From assembly GCA_947173495.1 (NCBI GenBank), contig CAMWFQ010000003.1, positions 1 through 64,000 on the forward strand: a stretch of 64,000 bases of DNA. Direction: 5' to 3'. The position numbers were made by a program, and so were the translations under genes. This document shows, piece by piece, positions 52,372 to 64,000 of this stretch (position 1 is its first letter; each line of letters begins with the position of its first letter). The DNA comes from an uncultured Lachnospiraceae bacterium (GTDB lineage Bacteria; Bacillota; Clostridia; Lachnospirales; Lachnospiraceae). The notes beneath the pieces were generated by a model that was not told where the DNA came from, did not search any database, and saw only the letters and a program-made list of their open reading frames with translations.

Positions 52372-53229
52372 TCAGACTTTATAAATCCTCCAGAGATCCT
52401 CCAAAGCAATGGTTCTCCCCAGAATTGCGCTGATCTCCCGCTCTCTGGAATGGAACAGGCCGGAAAGCAGCCGGCGCACATCCTCTTTTGTACCATAATG
52501 GATCTGATTATGGCAGTTACTGCACAGCGAAAAAATATTCTGTTCTCTGTCGAGACTGACGCCAAACTCGTCTGTCATGGACATGGGAATTAAATGATGC
52601 GGCTCCATATACAGGCAATCCGCATTCTTACGGCGAAAAGATGCATGTGCCGGGTCCACCTCACAGCGATGTCCGGCACGGGCAAGGGCCCGCCGGGCAA
52701 CGGCGGGATCCCGTAAATAGATATTTTTGCTGCCTGAGCGTTCCAGGAGCGGCCCCTTAGGCATCGGTTCGTCCGAACAAAACGTCACCGCCTCGTCCTG
52801 AACATCCTCTGACTGATGCATCTGTTCCAGCAGCATCTGATCCGCCGTACTTTCAAAATCCATATGACTGTGAAGAAATTTCTGGCGGAAAACGGCTGTA
52901 AAGCGGGCGTCCTCTTCAGACGACATATTTTTGACCTTCTCATCCATCAAATTCACATATGCCTTTCCAGGCTCTGTGATCTGCCAGATTCCCTTCACGC
53001 CCTTCTGCATATATCCCCGCTCGACCAGGTGATGCCGTTCATAAGAAAAATCATTCCGCCAGGCTCTTTCGTTTCTCGTCGTGCGCAAAGCATCGTTCCG
53101 GTCATTTTTGTACCAGTATCCCTTTTCCTGTATATGCTGTAATACCGTCTTTCTCCGGCCGCCTCCGCCCAGCTCCATAAGAGAATAAAGCAGTACCAGC
53201 CATTTTTGCTCCTGTTGATTCATCTGCAT
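52372..53229 (-). CDS. HNH endonuclease with N-terminal winged-helix domain, restriction partner of M-S fusion
   Basis: A 285-residue protein. An N-terminal winged helix (about 5-95: LLYSLMELGGGGRRKTVLQH, then RNDFSYERHHLVERGYMQ) resembles Mrr-N-type domains. The C-terminal HNH nuclease has RCEVDPAHASF (about 188), YMEPHHLIPMS (His-His near 208-212), and CSNCHNQIHYG (236-246). Start ATG at 53229 has AAAGGAGG upstream and overlaps the methylase by 10 bp. This tight coupling with a methylase makes a restriction role likely. HNH with a methylase-specificity fusion is an unusual arrangement. Confidence 0.85.
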   Translation of the reverse strand: MQMNQQEQKWLVLLYSLMELGGGGRRKTVLQHIQEKGYWYKNDRNDALRTTRNERAWRNDFSYERHHLVERGYMQKGVKGIWQITEPGKAYVNLMDEKVKNMSSEEDARFTAVFRQKFLHSHMDFESTADQMLLEQMHQSEDVQDEAVTFCSDEPMPKGPLLERSGSKNIYLRDPAVARRALARAGHRCEVDPAHASFRRKNADCLYMEPHHLIPMSMTDEFGVSLDREQNIFSLCSNCHNQIHYGTKEDVRRLLSGLFHSREREISAILGRTIALEDLWRIYKV

Positions 53230-55232
53230 GGATCATCCTCCTTTCTGCTTTGGATACCCATGACAGAACAGGTAATATACCTCCGTATGAGAAGCCGTTC
53301 GCATTCTTCCAGCAGGCTCTTCAGCCGTTCATCCGTACATTGCTCACGAAACCGGAAAAGCGAAAATACCGCGCTTCCCAGTTTCTTCTGCATTTCCGTA
53401 TCCGGAAAATAAACCGCAATTTTTGAGAGCTTTTTATTGTTGATGCCCGCATATGTTGTATAGACAGTAGAGACATTTTCAACTTCCCATCGGTAAATCT
53501 CACTGCGAAAGTAGCATGCTGCATAAAGAGGATCCATGGTCTTCTCTTCCCGGGGACGGAGTCGTTTCAGGAAACCGCCGCAGACCGCCTCCTGATCTTT
53601 TAGTGCCACGCAGCCGCAGGCAAGCTCTTCCGTCGTCTCGCTTGTCCTGTTTAAAAGCACATCTCCGCACTTTATTCCGTACTTTATTTTTTCATCCTCC
53701 GTCACTTCCACACAGGAAGAAACATGATCCGGTACATAAGGAGCGTGAATCACCGCCTTTACGTCCACTAACGGGGTTCCCCTGCCAAAGAATGCCCTGC
53801 CTTTCATCACCCCGCCGGACACATCATACATTTCAAGCAGATCCGCCTTTTTCCATGCTTTTGCACCTTCGGCATTTTTCCATGGAACCAGGGCGGATAC
53901 GAAGGATGCATCCGCGCATTGTGCGGAAATCTCCTCTATGATCTCCGCCAGCTTTTCGCATTCTCTCCTGACCTGAGAGTGTCCGGGCCGGGAAACCGCC
54001 AGATACAGATTCGGGCTGAGCAGAAACTCCTTCTGTGCCACCGCCTCTGGCGAGGCAGTCCCATACCACTCCGTACAGCCATGCAGATTTCCCTTCCGGT
54101 GCCTGTCCGCCAGCCCTTTTAACTCCTCGATGTGTGCTGGCGTAATTTCCTTTCTGACTGCCGGCTTCATCCGTGCGACATCTATAAAAAGGATCTCCCG
54201 CTCCGCCCTGCCGGTACCTGCCAGCAGCCAGATACAGCAGGGCACTCTGGTGGAATAGAACAGACCCGGAGGAAGGGTAATAATTGCCTCCACCAGATTG
54301 TTTCGGATCATTGCCTCCCGGATGTCTGCTTCCCGTCGTATCCGGGTGGTCAGCGTCCCGTTGGGCAGGACCACAGCCCCGCGGCCCTCCGGTTTCAGAT
54401 GACTTAAAACATGCTGAAGCCAGGCAAAGTTGGCATTTGAGCGGGGAGGGAATCCCAGACACCACCTTTCATCACCTGCAATGGCAAAGTCGTTGAACCA
54501 GTCCTTGTAATTAAACGGCGGATTCATAATAACAAAGTCGAATTTCCTGTCCCTGTGCCGGTCTTGCAGCAGTGTACTGGCAGGCTCCCGCCCCAGATCC
54601 GCATATCCCCCTCTGAACAGAAGGCTCAGCTGAGAAAGCAGGTACGAATCCTCGTCCTGGGTCTGCCCATACAGTTTCAGGTTCCGCCCGCTGTACTGCC
54701 AGGCTGCGGAGAGCAATGCTCCGCTTCCGCAACAGGGATCGTACGCCGTCCCCTGCTCCGGATTCAGCAGTGCCGCAAGGCACCGGGCAACACTCCGGGG
54801 CGTATAAAAATCACCGGATGCCGATGTTATGCTGCCTGCGGAACTTTTTCTGCAAAAGTAAAATTCAAAAATATCAGCCGTGGACAAAACATTTTCGGGA
54901 ATATCCCACAGCCATTCTGTCAGCTCTCTCAAAGAGTCCTCTTCCACATCCTGCTTTTCATTCTTCTCTATCAGCATCTGCACAAAAGGAAACGAGTCCT
55001 TCAGCAAAGTAAGGGCATCTGCCACAGACTCCCTGTACGTGCTCTTCCGCTTTGTCAGCACCAGCTCCAGCAGCTGATGCTCAGTTTGTCCAAAATCCTT
55101 CTCTGCTAAAAATTCCGGTAAAAACTCCTCCTGTGATAACTTCCTGAGCAGTAACAGACTGAAGAAGATGCTGTCCCCTGTGCGCCTGCCAAGTTGTTCT
55201 ATTTTCCAAAGTTCTTTCCTTCCGCCTGCCAT
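53220..55232 (-). CDS. N6-adenine methylase fused to a specificity (TRD) domain
   Basis: A 670-residue protein. Residues 1-140 form a helical HsdM-like N-terminal region, then an N6-adenine methylase with motif I TAYDPCCGSGALLSA (about 159-173) and motif IV VIMNPPFNYKDWF (about 231). From about 430 a specificity-like region follows (AEIIEEISAQCADASFVSAL, LEMYDVSGGVMKGRAF and TVYTTYAGINNKKLSKIAVY) with one TRD of HsdS type and a coiled C-terminus. So M and S are one polypeptide, as in type IIG/type I-half systems. It is divergent from the type I operon at 55.5 kb. AGAGAGG precedes the ATG at 55232. Confidence 0.87.
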   Translation of the reverse strand: MAGGRKELWKIEQLGRRTGDSIFFSLLLLRKLSQEEFLPEFLAEKDFGQTEHQLLELVLTKRKSTYRESVADALTLLKDSFPFVQMLIEKNEKQDVEEDSLRELTEWLWDIPENVLSTADIFEFYFCRKSSAGSITSASGDFYTPRSVARCLAALLNPEQGTAYDPCCGSGALLSAAWQYSGRNLKLYGQTQDEDSYLLSQLSLLFRGGYADLGREPASTLLQDRHRDRKFDFVIMNPPFNYKDWFNDFAIAGDERWCLGFPPRSNANFAWLQHVLSHLKPEGRGAVVLPNGTLTTRIRREADIREAMIRNNLVEAIITLPPGLFYSTRVPCCIWLLAGTGRAEREILFIDVARMKPAVRKEITPAHIEELKGLADRHRKGNLHGCTEWYGTASPEAVAQKEFLLSPNLYLAVSRPGHSQVRRECEKLAEIIEEISAQCADASFVSALVPWKNAEGAKAWKKADLLEMYDVSGGVMKGRAFFGRGTPLVDVKAVIHAPYVPDHVSSCVEVTEDEKIKYGIKCGDVLLNRTSETTEELACGCVALKDQEAVCGGFLKRLRPREEKTMDPLYAACYFRSEIYRWEVENVSTVYTTYAGINNKKLSKIAVYFPDTEMQKKLGSAVFSLFRFREQCTDERLKSLLEECERLLIRRYITCSVMGIQSRKEDDPCR

Positions 55233-55510: not shown

Positions 55511-55717
55511 ATGACTATCAGTTACAAAAAATTATGGAAACTGTTAATTGACAAGGATATGAAGAAAAAAGACTTGCAACAATTGGCGGGGATTAGTGCG
55601 GCATCTGTTACGAAGCTCGGCAAAAATGAAAATGTAAATACGGAAATCATTGAAAAAATCTGTACAGCCCTAAGATGTGATGTCTGTGATATTATGGAAA
55701 TGGTAGAAAAACCGTGA
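55511..55717 (+). CDS. Small XRE/Cro-family HTH regulator
   Basis: A 68-residue DNA-binding protein, essentially one HTH_3 domain (DMKKKDLQQLAGISAASVTK, then LGKNENVNTEIIEKICTALR and CDVCDIMEMVE). It has AAAGGAAGG upstream. Such regulators act as controllers of restriction-modification expression or come with integrative elements. It is first in the type I operon, 90 bases before HsdM. Confidence 0.9.
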   Translation: MTISYKKLWKLLIDKDMKKKDLQQLAGISAASVTKLGKNENVNTEIIEKICTALRCDVCDIMEMVEKP

Positions 55718-55807: not shown

Positions 55808-57814
55808 ATGGACAATCAAATTCACAATACAATCGTAAGTTTTATATGGGGAATTGCGGATGACTGCCTGCGCGACGTGTATGTGCGGGGAAAATATCGT
55901 GATGTCATTCTGCCAATGACAGTTATCCGCCGTTTGGATGCCATGCTGGAGGACAGCAAAGGGGCTGTTCTTGATATGAAGAAAAAGCTGGATGAAGCCA
56001 GAATCGACAATCAGTGGCAGGCGCTGTGCAATGCGGCAGGGCAGGCATTCTGTAATGCCTCGCCATTCCGTCTGCGCGACCTCACCAGTCGTGCTAAGAA
56101 GCAAACACTAAAGGCAGACTTTGAGGCTTACCTAGACGGTTTTTCCCCTAATGTGCAGGAAATTTTGGAGAAGTTCAAGTTCCGAAACCAAATTGACACG
56201 ATGATTGAGGCGGATATTCTGGGGGCGGTGATTGAGAAATTTATTTCGTCGGATATCAACCTCTCTCCGAAGCCGGTTTATAAGGATGATGCGCAGACTA
56301 TCGTGAAGCATCCAGGACTGGACAACCACGGAATGGGTACGATTTTTGAGGAACTGATCCGCAAGTTCAATGAGGAAAACAACGAGGAGGCCGGGGAACA
56401 CTGGACGCCCCGCGATGTCGTTGAACTGATGGCTGACCTTGTGTTTATGCCCATCGCCGACAAAATCAAGGATGCTACCTATTCCTGTTATGACGGAGCC
56501 TGCGGGACGGGCGGTATGCTTACTGTCGCGCAGGACCGGCTTCTGACGATTGCCCGGCAGTATGGAAAGAATGTATCTATTCATTTGTTCGGACAGGAAG
56601 TGAACCCCGAAACATATGCAATCTGCAAGGCGGATATGCTGCTCAAAGGTGATGGGGAACAGGCGGAGCATATCAGCTATGGTTCTACACTTTCCCTGGA
56701 TGGAAACGCCACAAGGCAGTTCGATTTTATGCTGTCCAATCCACCTTACGGGAAAAGCTGGAAAGTGGACGCGGAGAAGATGGGCGGCAAAAAGGAGATT
56801 TTGGATACCCGCTTTAATACCTATCTTGAAGACGGCGAACAGATGGCGATGATTCCGCGGACAAGCGATGGTCAGTTGCTTTTCCTGCTGAACAATGTGG
56901 CAAAGATGAAAAAGGATACACCGCTGGGCAGCCGAATTGCCGAGGTACATAACGGCTCGTCCATTTTTACGGGAGACGCTGGCAGCGGGGAAAGCAATGC
57001 CCGCCGCTATCTGATTGAGAATGACCTGGTTGAGGCTATCATCGCATTGCCGGAGAATATGTTCTACAACACAGGGATCGGGACATTCATCTGGATTTTG
57101 TCCAACCGAAAGGAAGAACGACGCAAAGGAAAAATTCAACTGATTGACGCGACCGCCATGAAATCTCCGCTCCGCAAAAATATGGGCAAGAAGAATTGCG
57201 AAGTTACACCGGAAATCCGCAATGAGATCGTCCGCATTTTTATGGAAATGGAGCAAAGCGAAGTCAGCATGATCTTTGATAACGAGGAGTTTGGCTACTG
57301 GTCTGTCACGGTGGAGCGGCCTCTGCGCCTGCGCATATATCTAGACAGGGAAATTCCGGCCAGTTTGTTTAAGAAAGCGGATGAGGTTGTGGCGGTGCAA
57401 AGCGCTGTCGTCGAAGCCGCAAAAACCGCTCCTCTGGATGATTGGACAGCATTTGCCAAAGCCACAAAGCTGAAAGCCGCTACCTTGAAGAAAATCCGGC
57501 CCTTTATCACGGAGAAAGACTCGTCTGCGCAGGCCATTGAAGGGGAACCGGATGTTGATTTGCGGGATACGGAAAATATCCCGTTTACCTATGAGGGCGG
57601 CATTGATGCATTTATGAAAGATGAAGTGTTGCCATATGCCCCAGATGCCTATGTAGACGAAAAGAAAACACAGATTGGCTATGAGATCAGCTTTACCAAG
57701 TATTTCTATAAGCCGGTGGAACTGCGCCCTATGGAGGAAATTTTAGAGAGCCTGAAAGCTCTTGAACGGGAAGCGGATGGCATGATGGCGGAGATTATGG
57801 AGGGGATACGATGA
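55808..57814 (+). CDS. hsdM: Type I restriction-modification methylase subunit HsdM
   Basis: A 668-residue methylase making N6-methyladenine in the HsdMS complex. It begins with HsdM_N (about 5-145), followed by the SAM motif I YDGACGTGGML near residue 228 and motif IV SNPPYGKSW near 310. WTPRDVVELMADLV near 200 is the family-typical lead-in. A C-terminal region of about 150 residues (KPVELRPMEEILESLKALER) completes it. Stop overlaps HsdS start (ATGA). Length is usual for the extended HsdM form. Confidence 0.95.
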   Translation: MDNQIHNTIVSFIWGIADDCLRDVYVRGKYRDVILPMTVIRRLDAMLEDSKGAVLDMKKKLDEARIDNQWQALCNAAGQAFCNASPFRLRDLTSRAKKQTLKADFEAYLDGFSPNVQEILEKFKFRNQIDTMIEADILGAVIEKFISSDINLSPKPVYKDDAQTIVKHPGLDNHGMGTIFEELIRKFNEENNEEAGEHWTPRDVVELMADLVFMPIADKIKDATYSCYDGACGTGGMLTVAQDRLLTIARQYGKNVSIHLFGQEVNPETYAICKADMLLKGDGEQAEHISYGSTLSLDGNATRQFDFMLSNPPYGKSWKVDAEKMGGKKEILDTRFNTYLEDGEQMAMIPRTSDGQLLFLLNNVAKMKKDTPLGSRIAEVHNGSSIFTGDAGSGESNARRYLIENDLVEAIIALPENMFYNTGIGTFIWILSNRKEERRKGKIQLIDATAMKSPLRKNMGKKNCEVTPEIRNEIVRIFMEMEQSEVSMIFDNEEFGYWSVTVERPLRLRIYLDREIPASLFKKADEVVAVQSAVVEAAKTAPLDDWTAFAKATKLKAATLKKIRPFITEKDSSAQAIEGEPDVDLRDTENIPFTYEGGIDAFMKDEVLPYAPDAYVDEKKTQIGYEISFTKYFYKPVELRPMEEILESLKALEREADGMMAEIMEGIR

Positions 57815-59154
57815 ACACAAATCATACCCATGATAATCTCGTTTGGCTCAGGGCAATTCCCTCACATTGGGACTGCAAGAAAATTGGCTCTTTATTTACT
57901 GAGCGAAAAGTTAAGGTTTCCGACAAAGATTATCCCCCACTTTCTGTCGCAAAAATTGGTGTTGTGCCGCAATTAGACAGTGCAGTAAAAACTGATGCAG
58001 GGGACAATCGTAAACTGGTGCGTGTAGGGGACTTTGTTATCAATAGCCGGTCTGATAGAAAAGGCTCTTGTGGTGTTTCGGAACTTGATGGTTCGGTTTC
58101 TCTTATTAACATTGTACTTACACCCAGAAGCGAATGGAACAGCAGATATGTACATTATTTACTGAGAAGCCAGCCCTTCTCGGAGGAATATTATCGTAAC
58201 GGCAGAGGAATTGTTGCTGATTTATGGACAACGCGATACAGTGAAATGAAATCCATTCTTCTCCCCATCCCACCACGCCCCGAACAGGATCAGATTGTGC
58301 GGTTTTTGGATTGGAAGGTTTCAAGTATTAATCGGCTAATTTCAATAAAGCGGAAACAAATAGCATTGCTTCATGAGCGGCAGAGAGTTTATATCTCACA
58401 CATTGTCACACATGGCCTACACAATAATGTATCTACAAAAAATTCTGGGGTAGAGTGGATTGGCGATATACCAGAACATTGGCAAACTATGAGATGTAAG
58501 TATCTTTTCTCGGAACGGGACGAGCGTTCACAAGAGGGCCAGGAGCAGCATTTGTCTATGAGCCAAAAATATGGGCTTGTACCAGATAGTCAACTTGATG
58601 AACGCAGGATGCTCTCAGAATCGTATGCAGGCGGTAAACTGTGTTATAAAGATGATCTTGTTTTGAACAGGCTCAAAGCACACTTGGGTGTCTTTGCGTT
58701 GTCTCCACAGTCTGGAGTTATCAGCCCAGACTATACAGTGCTGATACCAAACACAGAGAGAGTTCTCCCGACATTTGCAGAAACTGTACTAAAAAGTGAC
58801 CGTTGCCGGGGTGAACTGCGCATCATGGTGCGCGGCATAATCGAAGGATTCTGGCGACTTTATACAGATGATTTTAATACTATCGTTCTGCCTGTCCCGC
58901 CAATTGAAGAACAGGCAGAAATTATGGAGTACATAATTAAGTTCCGTGATAAGACAAAAAAGTATGAAGATAGCCTAACGCAGGAGATTTCTACTTTACA
59001 GGAATTTAAGGCCCGCCTTATCTCCGATGTGGTAACAGGTAAAATAGATGTCCGAGGTATCGAAATTCCAGAATGCAAATTTGTGGAGGAAACGGTTGAT
59101 ACAGAGAATAATGAAAGCATGGAGGGAATGGAAGGTGAAATATATGAAGAATAA
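57811..59154 (+). CDS. hsdS: Type I specificity subunit HsdS
   Basis: A 447-residue protein with two TRDs, each ending in a coiled-coil conserved region. TRD1 begins near residue 14 (AIPSHWDCKKIGSLF) and ends at PRPEQDQIVRFLDWKVSSIN. TRD2 begins with GVEWIGDIPEHWQTMR (about 211) and ends at PPIEEQAEIMEYII. A long acidic C-terminal tail (ETVDTENNESMEGMEGEIYE) is an extra. The recognition sequence cannot be read from the sequence. Confidence 0.93.
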   Translation: MNTNHTHDNLVWLRAIPSHWDCKKIGSLFTERKVKVSDKDYPPLSVAKIGVVPQLDSAVKTDAGDNRKLVRVGDFVINSRSDRKGSCGVSELDGSVSLINIVLTPRSEWNSRYVHYLLRSQPFSEEYYRNGRGIVADLWTTRYSEMKSILLPIPPRPEQDQIVRFLDWKVSSINRLISIKRKQIALLHERQRVYISHIVTHGLHNNVSTKNSGVEWIGDIPEHWQTMRCKYLFSERDERSQEGQEQHLSMSQKYGLVPDSQLDERRMLSESYAGGKLCYKDDLVLNRLKAHLGVFALSPQSGVISPDYTVLIPNTERVLPTFAETVLKSDRCRGELRIMVRGIIEGFWRLYTDDFNTIVLPVPPIEEQAEIMEYIIKFRDKTKKYEDSLTQEISTLQEFKARLISDVVTGKIDVRGIEIPECKFVEETVDTENNESMEGMEGEIYEE

Positions 59155-60031
59155 ATTATCAAAATGGTGGTTTCTGGTTGTCCTAACCATTCCCTTCCTT
59201 CTAATGCTCTGCCTGCATATAGGAATTGCTCTGGGGAATTATTTTGGCATCAATATCAATGTGCCAAATGTCGATGCCTCCACATGGTTTATCTTTTGTG
59301 GCAGTTACCTTGGCGGGACGATGACACTTGCGGGTGTCATGCTTACATTGCGACATGAACGCAATATCCATCAATATGAGAAATCAATGGATAGCATCGA
59401 AAAAGAAAAAGATGCGTTGGGGAAAGCGATTTGTGATTTGAATGTTTTTGCATCAAGCACTCTCTATCAGCAGTTTAACAGTTTGTATATTACAGGCAAG
59501 GGATATGAACCTGCTGAAGTAGCAACTATCCGACAGCAACTTTCTGAAGAAATGCGAAAAATTAATGCTCTGAAATTGGAAACTATGTTTTTCACAGATA
59601 TTTATGCAATGACCGCAGGATGTTCCGCTTGTAAAAAGCCTTGCAGAGTCCAATCAATTTTGCCGGAGTTTCAAAAGATATATGAGAAGGTTGGAAGCAA
59701 ACTTTTCGAACTGCTACAGATAGTAGATGCCTATGTTGTTGTTTCTGTCAGTAATGCCCTGTATCAAGCTTTGATAACAAATTGTCAGCAAAGCAACCAG
59801 CGGCATCAAGCATTGGGACAGCCGCCAGAGTATAGTGAAGCTGAAATTGAAATCCATAAAAGCAAAATTATTGACATTGAACCTCAAAGGGAAAATTTAC
59901 TTGCCCTTATGAATGAGGTTAGCAAATATAATCAGAATGAAATCCAGCAACTATCTGCCCTAGCGCGTGAATACATCGCAACAAAACAACAAAACGCATA
60001 TAAAAAATGTTTTCACGGCAAGGAGGACTAA
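59144..60031 (+). CDS. Two-helix membrane protein with long coiled-coil, in the RM operon
   Basis: A 295-residue protein of unknown function. Two membrane helices lie at about 8-30 and 46-68 (WWFLVVLTIPFLLMLCL; FIFCGSYLGGTMTLAGVML). The GSYLGGxxxxxGVxLT pattern recurs in small proteins of phage-resistance loci. After them come a coiled-coil (about 72-100) and a cytoplasmic helical domain with a CSACKKPC cysteine cluster (C168/C171/C175 region). Start ATG at 59144 has GGAAGGTG upstream, overlaps HsdS by 11 bp, and is followed four bases later by the YhcG-like gene. The coupling argues it is part of the defence operon. The frame upstream to 59048 is a shadow. Confidence 0.75.
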   Translation: MKNKLSKWWFLVVLTIPFLLMLCLHIGIALGNYFGININVPNVDASTWFIFCGSYLGGTMTLAGVMLTLRHERNIHQYEKSMDSIEKEKDALGKAICDLNVFASSTLYQQFNSLYITGKGYEPAEVATIRQQLSEEMRKINALKLETMFFTDIYAMTAGCSACKKPCRVQSILPEFQKIYEKVGSKLFELLQIVDAYVVVSVSNALYQALITNCQQSNQRHQALGQPPEYSEAEIEIHKSKIIDIEPQRENLLALMNEVSKYNQNEIQQLSALAREYIATKQQNAYKKCFHGKED

Positions 60032-60035
60032 TAAA

Positions 60036-61058
60036 ATGGCTGACCTTAACCTAACTCCTTATGAGGACATCTATTCCGAAATAAAGGAAACCCTCCTGCT
60101 GTCACGCAATCAGGCATACAGCGCAGTCAATTTTGCGATGGTACAAGCCTACTGGCAGATTGGGCGCATCATTGTAGAGCATGAGCAAAACGGCAATGCG
60201 CGGGCTGATTATGGGAAAGCTGTTTTACAGGAGTTGTCCAGCCGTTTGACCAAGGACTTCGGCAAGGGCTTTTCTGTGCGGACATTGCAACAGATGAAGA
60301 AATTTTATGCGATGTTTCCAAATACGAACGCGCTGCGTTCGCAATTGACCTGGACGCATTACCGCCTTTTGCTGTCGGTGGAAAATGAACAGGCAAGGCA
60401 ATGGTATATGGACGAGGCTATTGCTTCCGCATGGTCGAGTCGCCAACTGGAAAGGCAGATTTCTACCCTATACTATGAGCGGCTTCTTGCAAGCAGAGAC
60501 CAGGTACCTGTAAGGGCCGAGGCTGTTGAACTCACAGCACCTTTATCTGCGGAAAATTTCATCAAAGACCCATATGTGTTGGAATTTCTTGATTTGAAAG
60601 ATTACCCGGCCCTGCGGGAGTCTGATTTGGAACAGGCATTGATTGATAAATTGCAGGAATTTCTGTTGGAGTTGGGGCGTGGTTTCTGCTTTGTAGCCAG
60701 ACAGAAGTTGATGCGCTATGAAGATGAGGACTTTTATCTTGACCTCGTGTTTTACCACAGTATCCTGAAATGCCATGTGCTGATTGACCTGAAAATCGGG
60801 AAATTGACCCACAGCGACATCGGCCAGATGGACAGCTACATCCGAATGTTTGATGCGCTATATAAAAACGAAGATGATAACCCTACTATCGGCATCATCT
60901 TGTGTTCCCAAAAGAATGAGGCAATCGTCAAATACTCTGTTTTGAACGATGCTCAACAAGTTTTTGCTTCGCGTTATCGTTTTGCCCTGCCCACTGCTGA
61001 AGAATTACAGCGTGAAATCGAAGCCGAGCGCAAGCGGATTGAAGAACAGGAGGGCTGA
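60036..61058 (+). CDS. YhcG/DUF1016-type PD-(D/E)XK nuclease
   Basis: A 340-residue protein. The N-terminal DUF1016 region (about 1-165: QAYWQIGRIIVEHEQNG, then LSVRTLQQMKKFYAMFP and LTWTHYRLLLSVENEQAR) is followed by a PD-(D/E)XK nuclease domain (RYEDEDFYLDLVFYH, then LIDLKIGKLTHSDIGQMDSY). The Asp in DLVFY and the D-x-K in LIDLKIG are the likely catalytic residues. ATG at 60036 has AAGGAGG upstream. Members often sit beside or inside type I RM operons, as here, between HsdS and HsdR. The function is not established. Confidence 0.9.
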   Translation: MADLNLTPYEDIYSEIKETLLLSRNQAYSAVNFAMVQAYWQIGRIIVEHEQNGNARADYGKAVLQELSSRLTKDFGKGFSVRTLQQMKKFYAMFPNTNALRSQLTWTHYRLLLSVENEQARQWYMDEAIASAWSSRQLERQISTLYYERLLASRDQVPVRAEAVELTAPLSAENFIKDPYVLEFLDLKDYPALRESDLEQALIDKLQEFLLELGRGFCFVARQKLMRYEDEDFYLDLVFYHSILKCHVLIDLKIGKLTHSDIGQMDSYIRMFDALYKNEDDNPTIGIILCSQKNEAIVKYSVLNDAQQVFASRYRFALPTAEELQREIEAERKRIEEQEG

Positions 61059-61060
61059 GT

Positions 61061-64000
61061 ATGGCCTTTACAAATACAAAAGAAAGCGGTTTGGAGGCCC
61101 TCATTGTAAAATGGCTGGTTGAGCAGAACGGTTATGAAGAAGGGACTAACGCCGATTATAATAAAGAATATGCGATTGATGAACCCCGCCTTTTTCGATT
61201 TTTGCAGGATACCCAGCCCTCACAGATGGGTAAGCTGGGTGTGTTTCGGTCCGAACAGAAAAAGCGTCAGTTTCTGAACCGCCTCCAGGGTGAGTTGGTC
61301 AAACGCGGTATTGTAGATGTTCTGCGCAATGGCATTAAAGTGTATCCGGTTGATCTCATCATGTTCTATCTCACACCGACCGAAAACAACGAAAAAGCGA
61401 GGGAGATGTTCCAGAAAAATATTTTCAGCGTGACGCGCCAGCTCCGCTATTCTCAGGACGCAGGCAAGCTAGCTCTTGACCTGTGCTTATTTATCAATGG
61501 ATTGCCTGTCATCACCTTTGAACTCAAAAACCAGCTTACAAAGCAAAATGTGGATGATGCCGTCCAGCAGTACAAAGATGATCGCGATCCTCGAGAGATG
61601 TTGTTCCAGTTCAAACGCTGCATGGTGCATCTGGCCGTGGATGACGCCCGTATCAAATTTTGCACTCGACTCGCGAGCAAAGACAGTTGGTTTCTGCCTT
61701 TCGATAAGGGATACAACGATGGAGCAGGCAATCCGCCGAATCCCAATGGCTTAATGACCGATTACCTGTGGAAAGACATTCTTACAAAAGAAAAACTGAC
61801 GCTGATTATTGAGAACTACGCTCAGGTTGTTATCGAGGTAGACGAGGATACCAAAAAGAAAAAAGAGAAGCAAATTTTTCCACGGTATCATCAGCTGGAT
61901 GTAGTTACAAAGCTTCTTAGCGATATGCAGGAAAACGGTATTGGGCGTAAATACCTGATTCAGCACAGTGCAGGAAGCGGCAAGTCCAACTCTATCGCAT
62001 GGCTTGCCCATCAGTTGATTGGACTGGAACAGGATGGGCATCCGATGCTGGACTCGGTTATTGTGGTCACTGACCGCCGTATCCTCGATAAACAGATCAG
62101 GGATACTATCAAGCAGTTTATGCAGGTCAGCAATACCGTGGCATGGGCAGAACACTCCAGCGACCTTACCAAAGCCATCACGGATGGCAAGCGCATCATC
62201 GTTACTACGATCGAGAAGTTCCCGTATATCGTTCCACAAATTGGAGCCGTCCACAAAGATAACCGGTTTGCCATTATCATTGATGAGGCGCATTCCGGGC
62301 AGAGTGGTCGCAACTCCGCACAGATGAATCTTGCCCTCTCCGGACTCGCTTCGGATAACGAGATGGACAACGAGGACAAAATCAACGCTATGATGGAAGG
62401 GCGTAAACTGCTGAATAATGCCAGCTATTTTGCCTTCACAGCTACACCGAAGAATAAGACATTGGAGACCTTCGGCATGCTTGTTGTGGATGAATATGGA
62501 AATCCTATATTGAATGATAAGGGCGAATTGCAGCATAAGCCATTCCATGTCTACACGATGAAGCAAGCTATCCAGGAAGGATTTATTCTGGATGTGTTGC
62601 GGAATTACACACCTATTGACAGCTTTTACAGATTGATGAAGACTGTCGAGGACGATCCGATGTTTGACAAAAAACGCGCCCAGAAGAAACTCCGTAATTT
62701 TGTGGAGAGCGACAGCTATACCATAGCGAAGAAGGCCGCTATGATGGTTGACCACTTCCATGAACAGGTCATCGCTATGGGAAAAGTTGGCGGGCAGGCC
62801 CGCGCTATGGTTGTGACTGCCAGTATTCCGCGATGCATCGAATATTATTATGCTATCAACAAGTGTCTTTCTGAAAGGCACAGCCCCTATAAAACCATTA
62901 TTGCTTTCTCTGGTGAGTGTAAGTACAACGGTCAGGAACCGCCGCTGACCTCGGCAGGCATGAATGGATTCCCAGACGCTAAGATACCAAAGACCTTTAA
63001 GGCGGATCCGTATCGCATCCTGATTGTTGCGGATATGTTTCAGACCGGCTTTGATGAACCCCTGCTCCACACGATGTATGTGGATAAGATGCTCTATGAC
63101 ATCAAAGCTGTACAGACCCTTTCAAGGCTGAACCGTTGTCATCCAAAGAAGTACGACACCTTCGTTTTGGATTTCGCTAATAAACCGGAAATTATTGAAG
63201 AGTCCTTCTCGCGCTACTATCGCACCACGATTTTGTCCGGAGAGACTGACCCCAACAAACTTTATGATCTTGTGGCAACGATGGAAGGGTATCAGATATA
63301 TTCCGGTGATGATGTAGAACGCTTGGTTAACTTGTATCTGAATGGCGCAGATCGTGATAAACTTGATCCTACTCTGGATGCCTGTACAGTCATTTATAAG
63401 CAGTTGGAAACGGATGACCAGATTAAGTTCAAAAGCGCGGCAAAAGCTTTTTGCCGTACATATGGATTCCTCGGCGCGATTATTCCCTATGGCAATGCAG
63501 ATTGGGAGCGGCTCTCTATTTTCCTCAATCTGCTGATACCCAAACTGCCTTCTCCCCGTGAGGACGATCTGTCGCAGGGCATTCTTGAGGCAATCGATTT
63601 GGAAAGCTATCGCAACGAGGCGCGTGAGTCAATATCCATCAAGTTGGAGGATTCTGATTCCGAGGTTGCACCGGTTCCATCCGGCAAGGTTGGTCACATT
63701 ATCGAACCAGAGATGGATTTACTTTCCGTTATTCTGTCTGATTTCAACGATATGTTTGGCAATATCAATTGGAACGATGCAGATAATGTGCGCAGACAGA
63801 TTCTTGAAATACCCGCTATGGTTTCCAGGGATGAGAAATATCAAAATGCTATGAAGAACTCTGATGAACAGAGTGCAAGACTTGAAAGTGAGCGGGCTTT
63901 GCAGCAGGTCATCTTCGCTATCATGGCTGATAATATGGAATTGTTCAAACAGTTTCAGGATAATCCCTCATTCAAGAAATGGCTTTCCGATCTTGTATTT
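61061..64000 (+). CDS. hsdR: Type I restriction subunit HsdR, 3' end beyond window
   Basis: Starts three bases after the YhcG stop with ATG at 61061 and stays open to the end of the window, giving 980 codons with no stop. The N-terminal PD-(D/E)XK nuclease has the D in LALDLCLFINGLP and ExK in ITFELKNQ (about residues 139-155). Helicase motifs follow: Walker A HSAGSGKSNSI near 303, DEAH IIIDEAHSGQSG near 406, FAFTATPKNKT near 463, and VADMFQTGFDEP plus QTLSRLNRCHPKKYDT near 660-705. It translocates DNA and cuts at a distance in the HsdR2M2S complex. Only a short C-terminal part seems missing. Confidence 0.95.
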   Translation, partial: MAFTNTKESGLEALIVKWLVEQNGYEEGTNADYNKEYAIDEPRLFRFLQDTQPSQMGKLGVFRSEQKKRQFLNRLQGELVKRGIVDVLRNGIKVYPVDLIMFYLTPTENNEKAREMFQKNIFSVTRQLRYSQDAGKLALDLCLFINGLPVITFELKNQLTKQNVDDAVQQYKDDRDPREMLFQFKRCMVHLAVDDARIKFCTRLASKDSWFLPFDKGYNDGAGNPPNPNGLMTDYLWKDILTKEKLTLIIENYAQVVIEVDEDTKKKKEKQIFPRYHQLDVVTKLLSDMQENGIGRKYLIQHSAGSGKSNSIAWLAHQLIGLEQDGHPMLDSVIVVTDRRILDKQIRDTIKQFMQVSNTVAWAEHSSDLTKAITDGKRIIVTTIEKFPYIVPQIGAVHKDNRFAIIIDEAHSGQSGRNSAQMNLALSGLASDNEMDNEDKINAMMEGRKLLNNASYFAFTATPKNKTLETFGMLVVDEYGNPILNDKGELQHKPFHVYTMKQAIQEGFILDVLRNYTPIDSFYRLMKTVEDDPMFDKKRAQKKLRNFVESDSYTIAKKAAMMVDHFHEQVIAMGKVGGQARAMVVTASIPRCIEYYYAINKCLSERHSPYKTIIAFSGECKYNGQEPPLTSAGMNGFPDAKIPKTFKADPYRILIVADMFQTGFDEPLLHTMYVDKMLYDIKAVQTLSRLNRCHPKKYDTFVLDFANKPEIIEESFSRYYRTTILSGETDPNKLYDLVATMEGYQIYSGDDVERLVNLYLNGADRDKLDPTLDACTVIYKQLETDDQIKFKSAAKAFCRTYGFLGAIIPYGNADWERLSIFLNLLIPKLPSPREDDLSQGILEAIDLESYRNEARESISIKLEDSDSEVAPVPSGKVGHIIEPEMDLLSVILSDFNDMFGNINWNDADNVRRQILEIPAMVSRDEKYQNAMKNSDEQSARLESERALQQVIFAIMADNMELFKQFQDNPSFKKWLSDLVF

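Follow-up and report, generated by a model that had tools for sequence, protein, structure and literature searches.

What are two extra genes doing between the specificity and restriction genes of a type I restriction–modification (RM) operon, and do they belong together? The question is posed by the 3′ end of the window, the whole 64,000-nucleotide stretch of DNA analysed here, where the following genes are arranged on one strand:

55511..55717, + strand: small Cro/C1-type HTH gene (HTH_26; Pfam PF13443, 2.6e-19), just 5′ of hsdM
55808..57814, + strand: hsdM, type I methyltransferase subunit (Pfam N6_Mtase 7e-52 and HsdM_N 8.2e-22; PADLOC MTase_I 9.6e-249)
57811..59154, + strand: hsdS, specificity subunit (Pfam Methylase_S 3.2e-08; PADLOC Specificity_I 4.5e-98)
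59144..60031, + strand: gene for a putative membrane protein of 295 aa, here called MP, with a CxxCxxxC cluster (C160, C163, C167) and a start inside the end of hsdS
60036..61058, + strand: yhcG, YhcG/DUF1016 PD-(D/E)XK nuclease, 340 aa from its ATG (Pfam YhcG_C 5.6e-57 and DUF1016_N 1.9e-45; PADLOC PDC-S02 6.6e-144)
61061..64000 (window edge), + strand: hsdR, restriction subunit (Pfam HSDR_N 8e-17 and SWI2_SNF2 1.7e-27)

The window thus ends in a type I RM operon in which hsdM, hsdS and hsdR are all present, open and co-oriented. The hsdR gene continues 141 bp beyond the window edge, and its complete reading frame encodes 1026 aa (L011 11062-14142). Four related loci (L031, L032, L035 and L036) also carry the HTH gene upstream (94–97%). 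The hsdS and MP genes overlap by 11 bp, MP and yhcG are separated by 4 bp, and yhcG and hsdR by 2 bp. The reading frames and their spacing agree with an earlier note on this DNA, which had described two genes between hsdS and hsdR with an 11-bp overlap and gaps of a few bases. Promoter-like and terminator-like signals in the operon show no excess over shuffled sequence. The MP start lies within the end of hsdS, so that translation of MP is probably coupled to that of HsdS.

MP has one strongly hydrophobic segment, at about residues 9–31 (Kyte-Doolittle up to 2.57). A second segment, residues 49–67, is weak, its value of 1.51 barely exceeding that of the stretch 193–211 (1.49). The two-helix architecture proposed earlier is therefore certain for the first helix and likely for the second, both being assigned from hydropathy; the second is accepted on the strength of a Gly-rich motif that it shares with remote relatives. 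Lysines precede segment 1 and arginines come after segment 2, which by the positive-inside rule suggests that both ends of the protein are cytoplasmic and would put the long coiled coil proposed in the earlier note on that side of the membrane. Cysteines 160, 163 and 167 form the expected CxxCxxxC cluster and are invariant in all 10 aligned proteins (8 close and 2 remote), the two remote proteins having one extra residue ahead of the third cysteine. In the arrangement that we envisage, an anchor close to the N terminus would leave the remainder of MP in the cytoplasm, where the cluster may bind a metal such as zinc and hold a helical domain.

Searches with MP against Pfam, NCBIfam, PHROGs and the PDB gave no match better than chance (best E 0.11, 0.057, 0.043 and 0.18, respectively), the weak PDB hits being mostly designed proteins, and PADLOC gave no match at all. 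No recognisable effector or enzyme domain was detected in MP with these five resources, and no Pfam or PADLOC profile for SLATT or other named two-helix effectors matched it. The SLATT_fungal profile was touched only by another protein in the analysis, L019, at an E of 0.015, which is below its cut-off. As far as the literature and family models searched extend, MP is an undescribed protein, and the earlier failure to recognise it is borne out.

The yhcG product is a plain member of the YhcG family, corresponding to the PADLOC candidate system PDC-S02. Its assignment as a YhcG/DUF1016 nuclease is confirmed by both Pfam domains and by residues D236 and D251-L-K253, which fit the PD-(D/E)XK motif; the activity itself is predicted from sequence. 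The reading frame is open in all six homologous loci that carry yhcG, one of them cut by its contig end. The occurrence of YhcG in RM loci, already remarked upon in the earlier note, has a precedent in print: in 2005 it was reported beside the type I cluster of a single archaeon and predicted to be a nuclease, with no other clear association known at that time (PMC1189080).

MP is rare. It is single-copy in its own genome, and a search of the genome collection identified 8 further loci that encode a relative (L031–L038), or 9 with the window; the hosts of 7 of the 8 are members of the Clostridia. In a sample of the host family, MP matched 8 of 397 genomes at E 0.001 or better, with close homologues confined to the window's genome, G403 and G652 (the last two taken to be the same loci as L031 and L038) and the others remote or chance matches. 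The only other genome of the same genus in this sample is without MP. Among 391 genomes sampled from the class, 2 matched, the window's own and one remote. Profile searches at E 0.01 raised these counts to 10/397 and 4/391, again mostly with remote matches. MP has no relative among 72,556 plasmid records and 50,697 phage records, nor in two scans of viral contigs.

In each of the 9 loci MP begins 11 bp before hsdS ends, giving an identical overlap, and yhcG follows in 7. The order hsdM-hsdS-MP-yhcG-hsdR is found in the window, L031, L035 and L036, with one stop in hsdR of L035 and frame changes in hsdM and hsdS of L036; sequencing errors may account for such breaks in draft genomes. L034 preserves the window's gene order until its contig ends within yhcG. 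L032 contains HTH-hsdS-MP-yhcG followed by a cut hsdR with a stop, and hsdM is missing. Despite their missing or broken hsd genes, L032, L035 and L036 each encode full-length MP and YhcG. In L037, MP has lost 24 internal residues, and the MP–yhcG segment is flanked by remnants of hsdS (residues 393–447) and hsdR (residues 2–33), which rules out this locus as an example of the two genes moving as a free pair. The two loci without yhcG are L038 (hsdM-hsdS-MP-hsdR, with frame changes in MP and hsdR) and L033, where hsdM, a short hsdS and MP are followed by a Schlafen/AlbA_2 gene and the contig ends 1.3 kb after MP. A search for a YhcG remnant in L033 returned short, partly palindromic matches (best 44 bp at 80%, E 3e-6) that we judged unconvincing.

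YhcG is likewise found without MP. Plasmid records matching YhcG at E 1e-60 or better number 48, and we examined 10 of these loci, hand-chosen for variety. In 5 of the 10, YhcG lies within an hsd operon, four times between hsdM and hsdS and once between hsdS and hsdR; the other 5 are outside hsd operons, one having pglZ and brxL nearby. MP is absent from all 10. No membrane partner was found flanking YhcG in these PDC-S02/YhcG loci, unlike in the window: the 20 annotated flanking proteins, from an incomplete gene table, have hydropathy peaks of at most 1.61, compared with 2.57 for MP. The one related hsd operon with YhcG in its hsdS–hsdR gap, L071, also lacks MP. The two proteins therefore do not form an obligate pair, each occurring alone (MP in 2 of 9 loci; YhcG in L071 and in all 10 plasmid loci). 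The coupling of MP to YhcG proposed in the earlier note holds to the extent that yhcG is the next gene in 7/9 loci; the firm link is to hsdS (9/9). Of the two points on which the note made its proposal depend, the homologues are not found outside defence loci, and their link with YhcG is partial. MP is thus tied more to the hsd operon than to YhcG, although these associations rest on small numbers because only 9 loci are available, from related hosts and partly from draft assemblies.

The position of MP and YhcG within the operon is a recurrent cargo slot. A search with HsdR of the 397 host-family genomes identified 24 places in 23 genomes at E 1e-100 or better, of which 20 were compared; the other four are the three loci already known to carry MP and a contig starting within hsdR. 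The hsdS and hsdR genes are adjacent in 13 of the 20, and a gene lies between them in 7:

L072, L077 and L080: TIR proteins
L071: YhcG
L076: DUF4238
L069: another membrane protein, without a Pfam match
L079: a protein without an assigned family

The slot is empty in L063–L065, the three of these 20 loci closest to the window in HsdR (78–80%), one of which (L063) is cut before hsdM. MP and yhcG therefore behave as embedded accessory genes, lying on the same strand between hsd genes at a site that is empty or otherwise filled in related operons. A gap that in this bacterial family repeatedly carries TIR, YhcG and membrane proteins is a good hunting ground for new defence genes.

Inserts of this kind are known from other bacteria. 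The prrC gene sits between hsdS and hsdR. PrrC is reported to be embedded in the EcoprrI type I operon and to become active when the enzyme is inhibited (PMC12707154, PMC3874165, PMC3506569). EcoprrI resembles the MP case in that its type I RM operon harbours an additional gene, but the window's operon has two. PrrC is also reported to contain an ABC NTPase and a tRNA-cutting domain, whereas in MP there are membrane helices but no enzyme domain that could be recognised; neither ABC NTPase nor anticodon-nuclease domains, the hallmarks of PrrC/RloC, were found in MP or YhcG, and the match of MP to ABC_tran_CTD (E 0.23) is far below the cut-off. DarTG2 is another parallel in layout, reported as a two-gene insert at the same place, between hsdS and hsdR, termed a potential recombination hotspot, with a small repressor gene heading the island (PMC12255303). 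DarTG2 is, however, a toxin–antitoxin pair, and MP and YhcG match neither component by family scan. TgvAB, as far as its report could be consulted, is also a two-gene insert between hsdS and hsdR of a type I RM operon, in Vibrio; both genes are required and the system acts on phages with hypermodified genomes (PMC11411939). TgvAB is GmrSD-like, and MP and YhcG are not (Pfam).

Because such embedded extras are already in print, the earlier claim of a new arrangement cannot be maintained: MP itself is a new protein in a known kind of arrangement. Among the literature matches listed, titles and abstract openings describe no membrane protein paired with YhcG, a preprint on embedded defences being outside the scope of this comparison. 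YhcG or DUF1016 is not mentioned in the available text of PMC12839542 and PMC13092281, and appears in that of PMC11341870 only as a figure label.

The MP reading frame is not a chance one, being kept in frame and position in 9 distinct loci with low dN/dS. Values are 0.07–0.23 in 25 of 28 MP pairs (3 are saturated) and 0.02–0.09 in 21 YhcG pairs, although many or most of the dS values are near saturation, making the ratios rough. MP is therefore under purifying selection, which marks constraint and is no proof of a defence role; whole-gene averages give no sign of positive selection. The MP sequences fall into two groups, the window with L031–L033 and L034–L037, that match the groupings of neither HsdS nor YhcG. 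Between the window and L034–L037, YhcG is 94–97% identical and MP 67–69%; for L036, the figures are 97% and 69%, with dS of 0.49 for YhcG and 1.44 for MP. HsdS and MP are similarly discordant, at 87% and 67% for window–L035 and 36% and 97% for L031–L032. The differing synonymous distances of MP and YhcG fit allele swapping, and MP alleles seem to have been exchanged on their own.

MP also has two remote relatives. L015 (377 aa) and L017 (338 aa from the first Met used) are 70% alike and have in common with MP the N-terminal part and the cysteine cluster; the MP family profile matches them over 185 columns (93.6%, E 2.1e-7). L017 follows Lamassu lmuA and lmuB genes (PADLOC 1.1e-111 and 2.5e-178), a single instance, from a contig of 4.5 kb. 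L015 has a SEC-C gene on one side and a PDDEXK_2 gene on the other, and its surroundings show no clear defence system; a PDDEXK_2 gene comes next after both proteins. Plasmids, phages and viral contigs yielded no relative of L015, and a search of 25 genomes for further L017-type members returned one, L017 itself. In the other remote relatives the match is confined to the N-terminal part, and the cysteine cluster is, by eye, absent. Among these, L012 follows hsdR of another type I operon, L016 adjoins a PIN gene, L087 is one gene from a HEPN gene, L088 follows RloB/AbiL-like genes and L089 is near a gene that looks phage-like; around L019 and L086 no defence genes are evident. L018, a chemotaxis receptor, and L090, by its look a sugar permease, were dropped as chance matches.

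How MP might act can be considered together with these observations. The earlier note proposed a membrane-anchored sensor that controls the nuclease as a second defence layer when the type I enzyme fails; spelled out, MP would hold YhcG back or recruit it and then let it go upon that failure. The 4-bp spacing, the same order in 7/9 loci and the occurrence of N-terminal relatives near predicted nucleases or toxins (the Cap4-type LmuA of L017 and the PIN, HEPN and RloB/AbiL neighbours) are what such a model would predict. We nevertheless think it unlikely, since L033 and L038 have MP without YhcG, YhcG does without MP in L071 and the plasmid loci, the two proteins have not diverged in parallel, and most of the relatives so placed have only the N-terminal part. 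A role for YhcG as a client of MP is possible given the 7 loci and is not required by the data.

The constant overlap with hsdS turns attention to the type I enzyme. MP could be a latent effector that HsdMSR silences and that phage inhibition releases, as PrrC is reported to act in the available parts of its literature, and the loss of 24 residues from MP beside the hsd remnants of L037 looks as if the protein had been disarmed. This is somewhat less probable still: full-length MP persists in L032, L035 and L036, where little would be left to restrain it, unless the breaks are assembly errors or MP is silent there; MP has no enzyme domain; and its alleles do not track HsdS. The same overlap would suit balanced synthesis with HsdS if MP were a helper of the enzyme, for instance one that keeps HsdMSR at the membrane, close to where DNA enters, and MP does accompany hsd genes even where YhcG is missing. 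We regard this as quite improbable, because the closely related hsdMSR sets of L063–L065 manage without MP, and MP stays open beside broken hsd genes.

The reading that we favour, with slightly better than an even chance of being correct, is that MP and YhcG are two accessory defence genes occupying the hsdS–hsdR cargo slot. YhcG would be a separate neighbour, probably attacking nucleic acid independently and not an obligate client of MP. Gene layout, overlap, conservation, purifying selection and the recurrent use of the slot are observed, whereas for MP we infer the topology, metal binding, an anti-phage role and a step at the membrane. The more specific idea, that MP works alongside the type I enzyme as an effector or tether in a second line of defence, is a tentative proposal that deserves clearly less credence than the cargo reading itself. 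Should MP prove to be a defence protein, the set of genes carried inside type I RM operons would gain a membrane component, and the nine loci would offer a small, testable family for membrane back-up of restriction enzymes. A broader and speculative extension, which we consider unlikely, is that MP founds a family of membrane-anchored defence partners, each with a metal-binding cysteine cluster, that join systems as different as Lamassu and type I RM with YhcG. Such partners would either draw the nucleases or other enzymes of these systems to the membrane or, when those fail, cause cell death from there. Two weak family-profile matches, L027 and L030, contain an internal stop.

The type I operon of the window is adjoined by a two-gene pair, divergent from it, that was recognized from open reading frames and family matches:

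Window 52372–55232, minus strand: methyltransferase gene and Mrr_N/HNH nuclease gene

The C-terminal part of the methyltransferase is specificity-like, and the nuclease gene overlaps the methyltransferase gene by 10 bp. The pair looks like a second RM system.

Three of the 20 related hsdR loci encode TIR-domain proteins between hsdS and hsdR, for which the top PADLOC match is the candidate PDC-S66. RhuM-family genes lie between hsdM and hsdS in the type I operons of L066 and of L012, a locus whose hit to the membrane protein covers the N-terminal part only.

TIR-domain and RhuM-family genes within type I operons
L072 9221–9979: TIR-domain protein
L077 8361–9116: TIR-domain protein
L080 8912–9934: TIR-domain protein
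L066 9686–10720: RhuM-family gene
L012 4287–5327: RhuM-family gene

Two further gene groups, with Lamassu and with AbiL-like genes:

L017 2718–3800: remote relative of the membrane protein, directly 3' of Lamassu lmuA and lmuB
L088 589–3262: AbiL-like ATPase and RloB/AbiLii genes, then a membrane protein

The L017 relative could be a further part of the Lamassu system; the L088 protein gives a weak PDC-M18B match.

In L031 and L036, which encode close homologues of the membrane protein beside hsdS, hsdR is followed by similar small genes and a gene of about 670 codons for a putative recombinase (assigned by appearance only), suggesting a shared mobile element.
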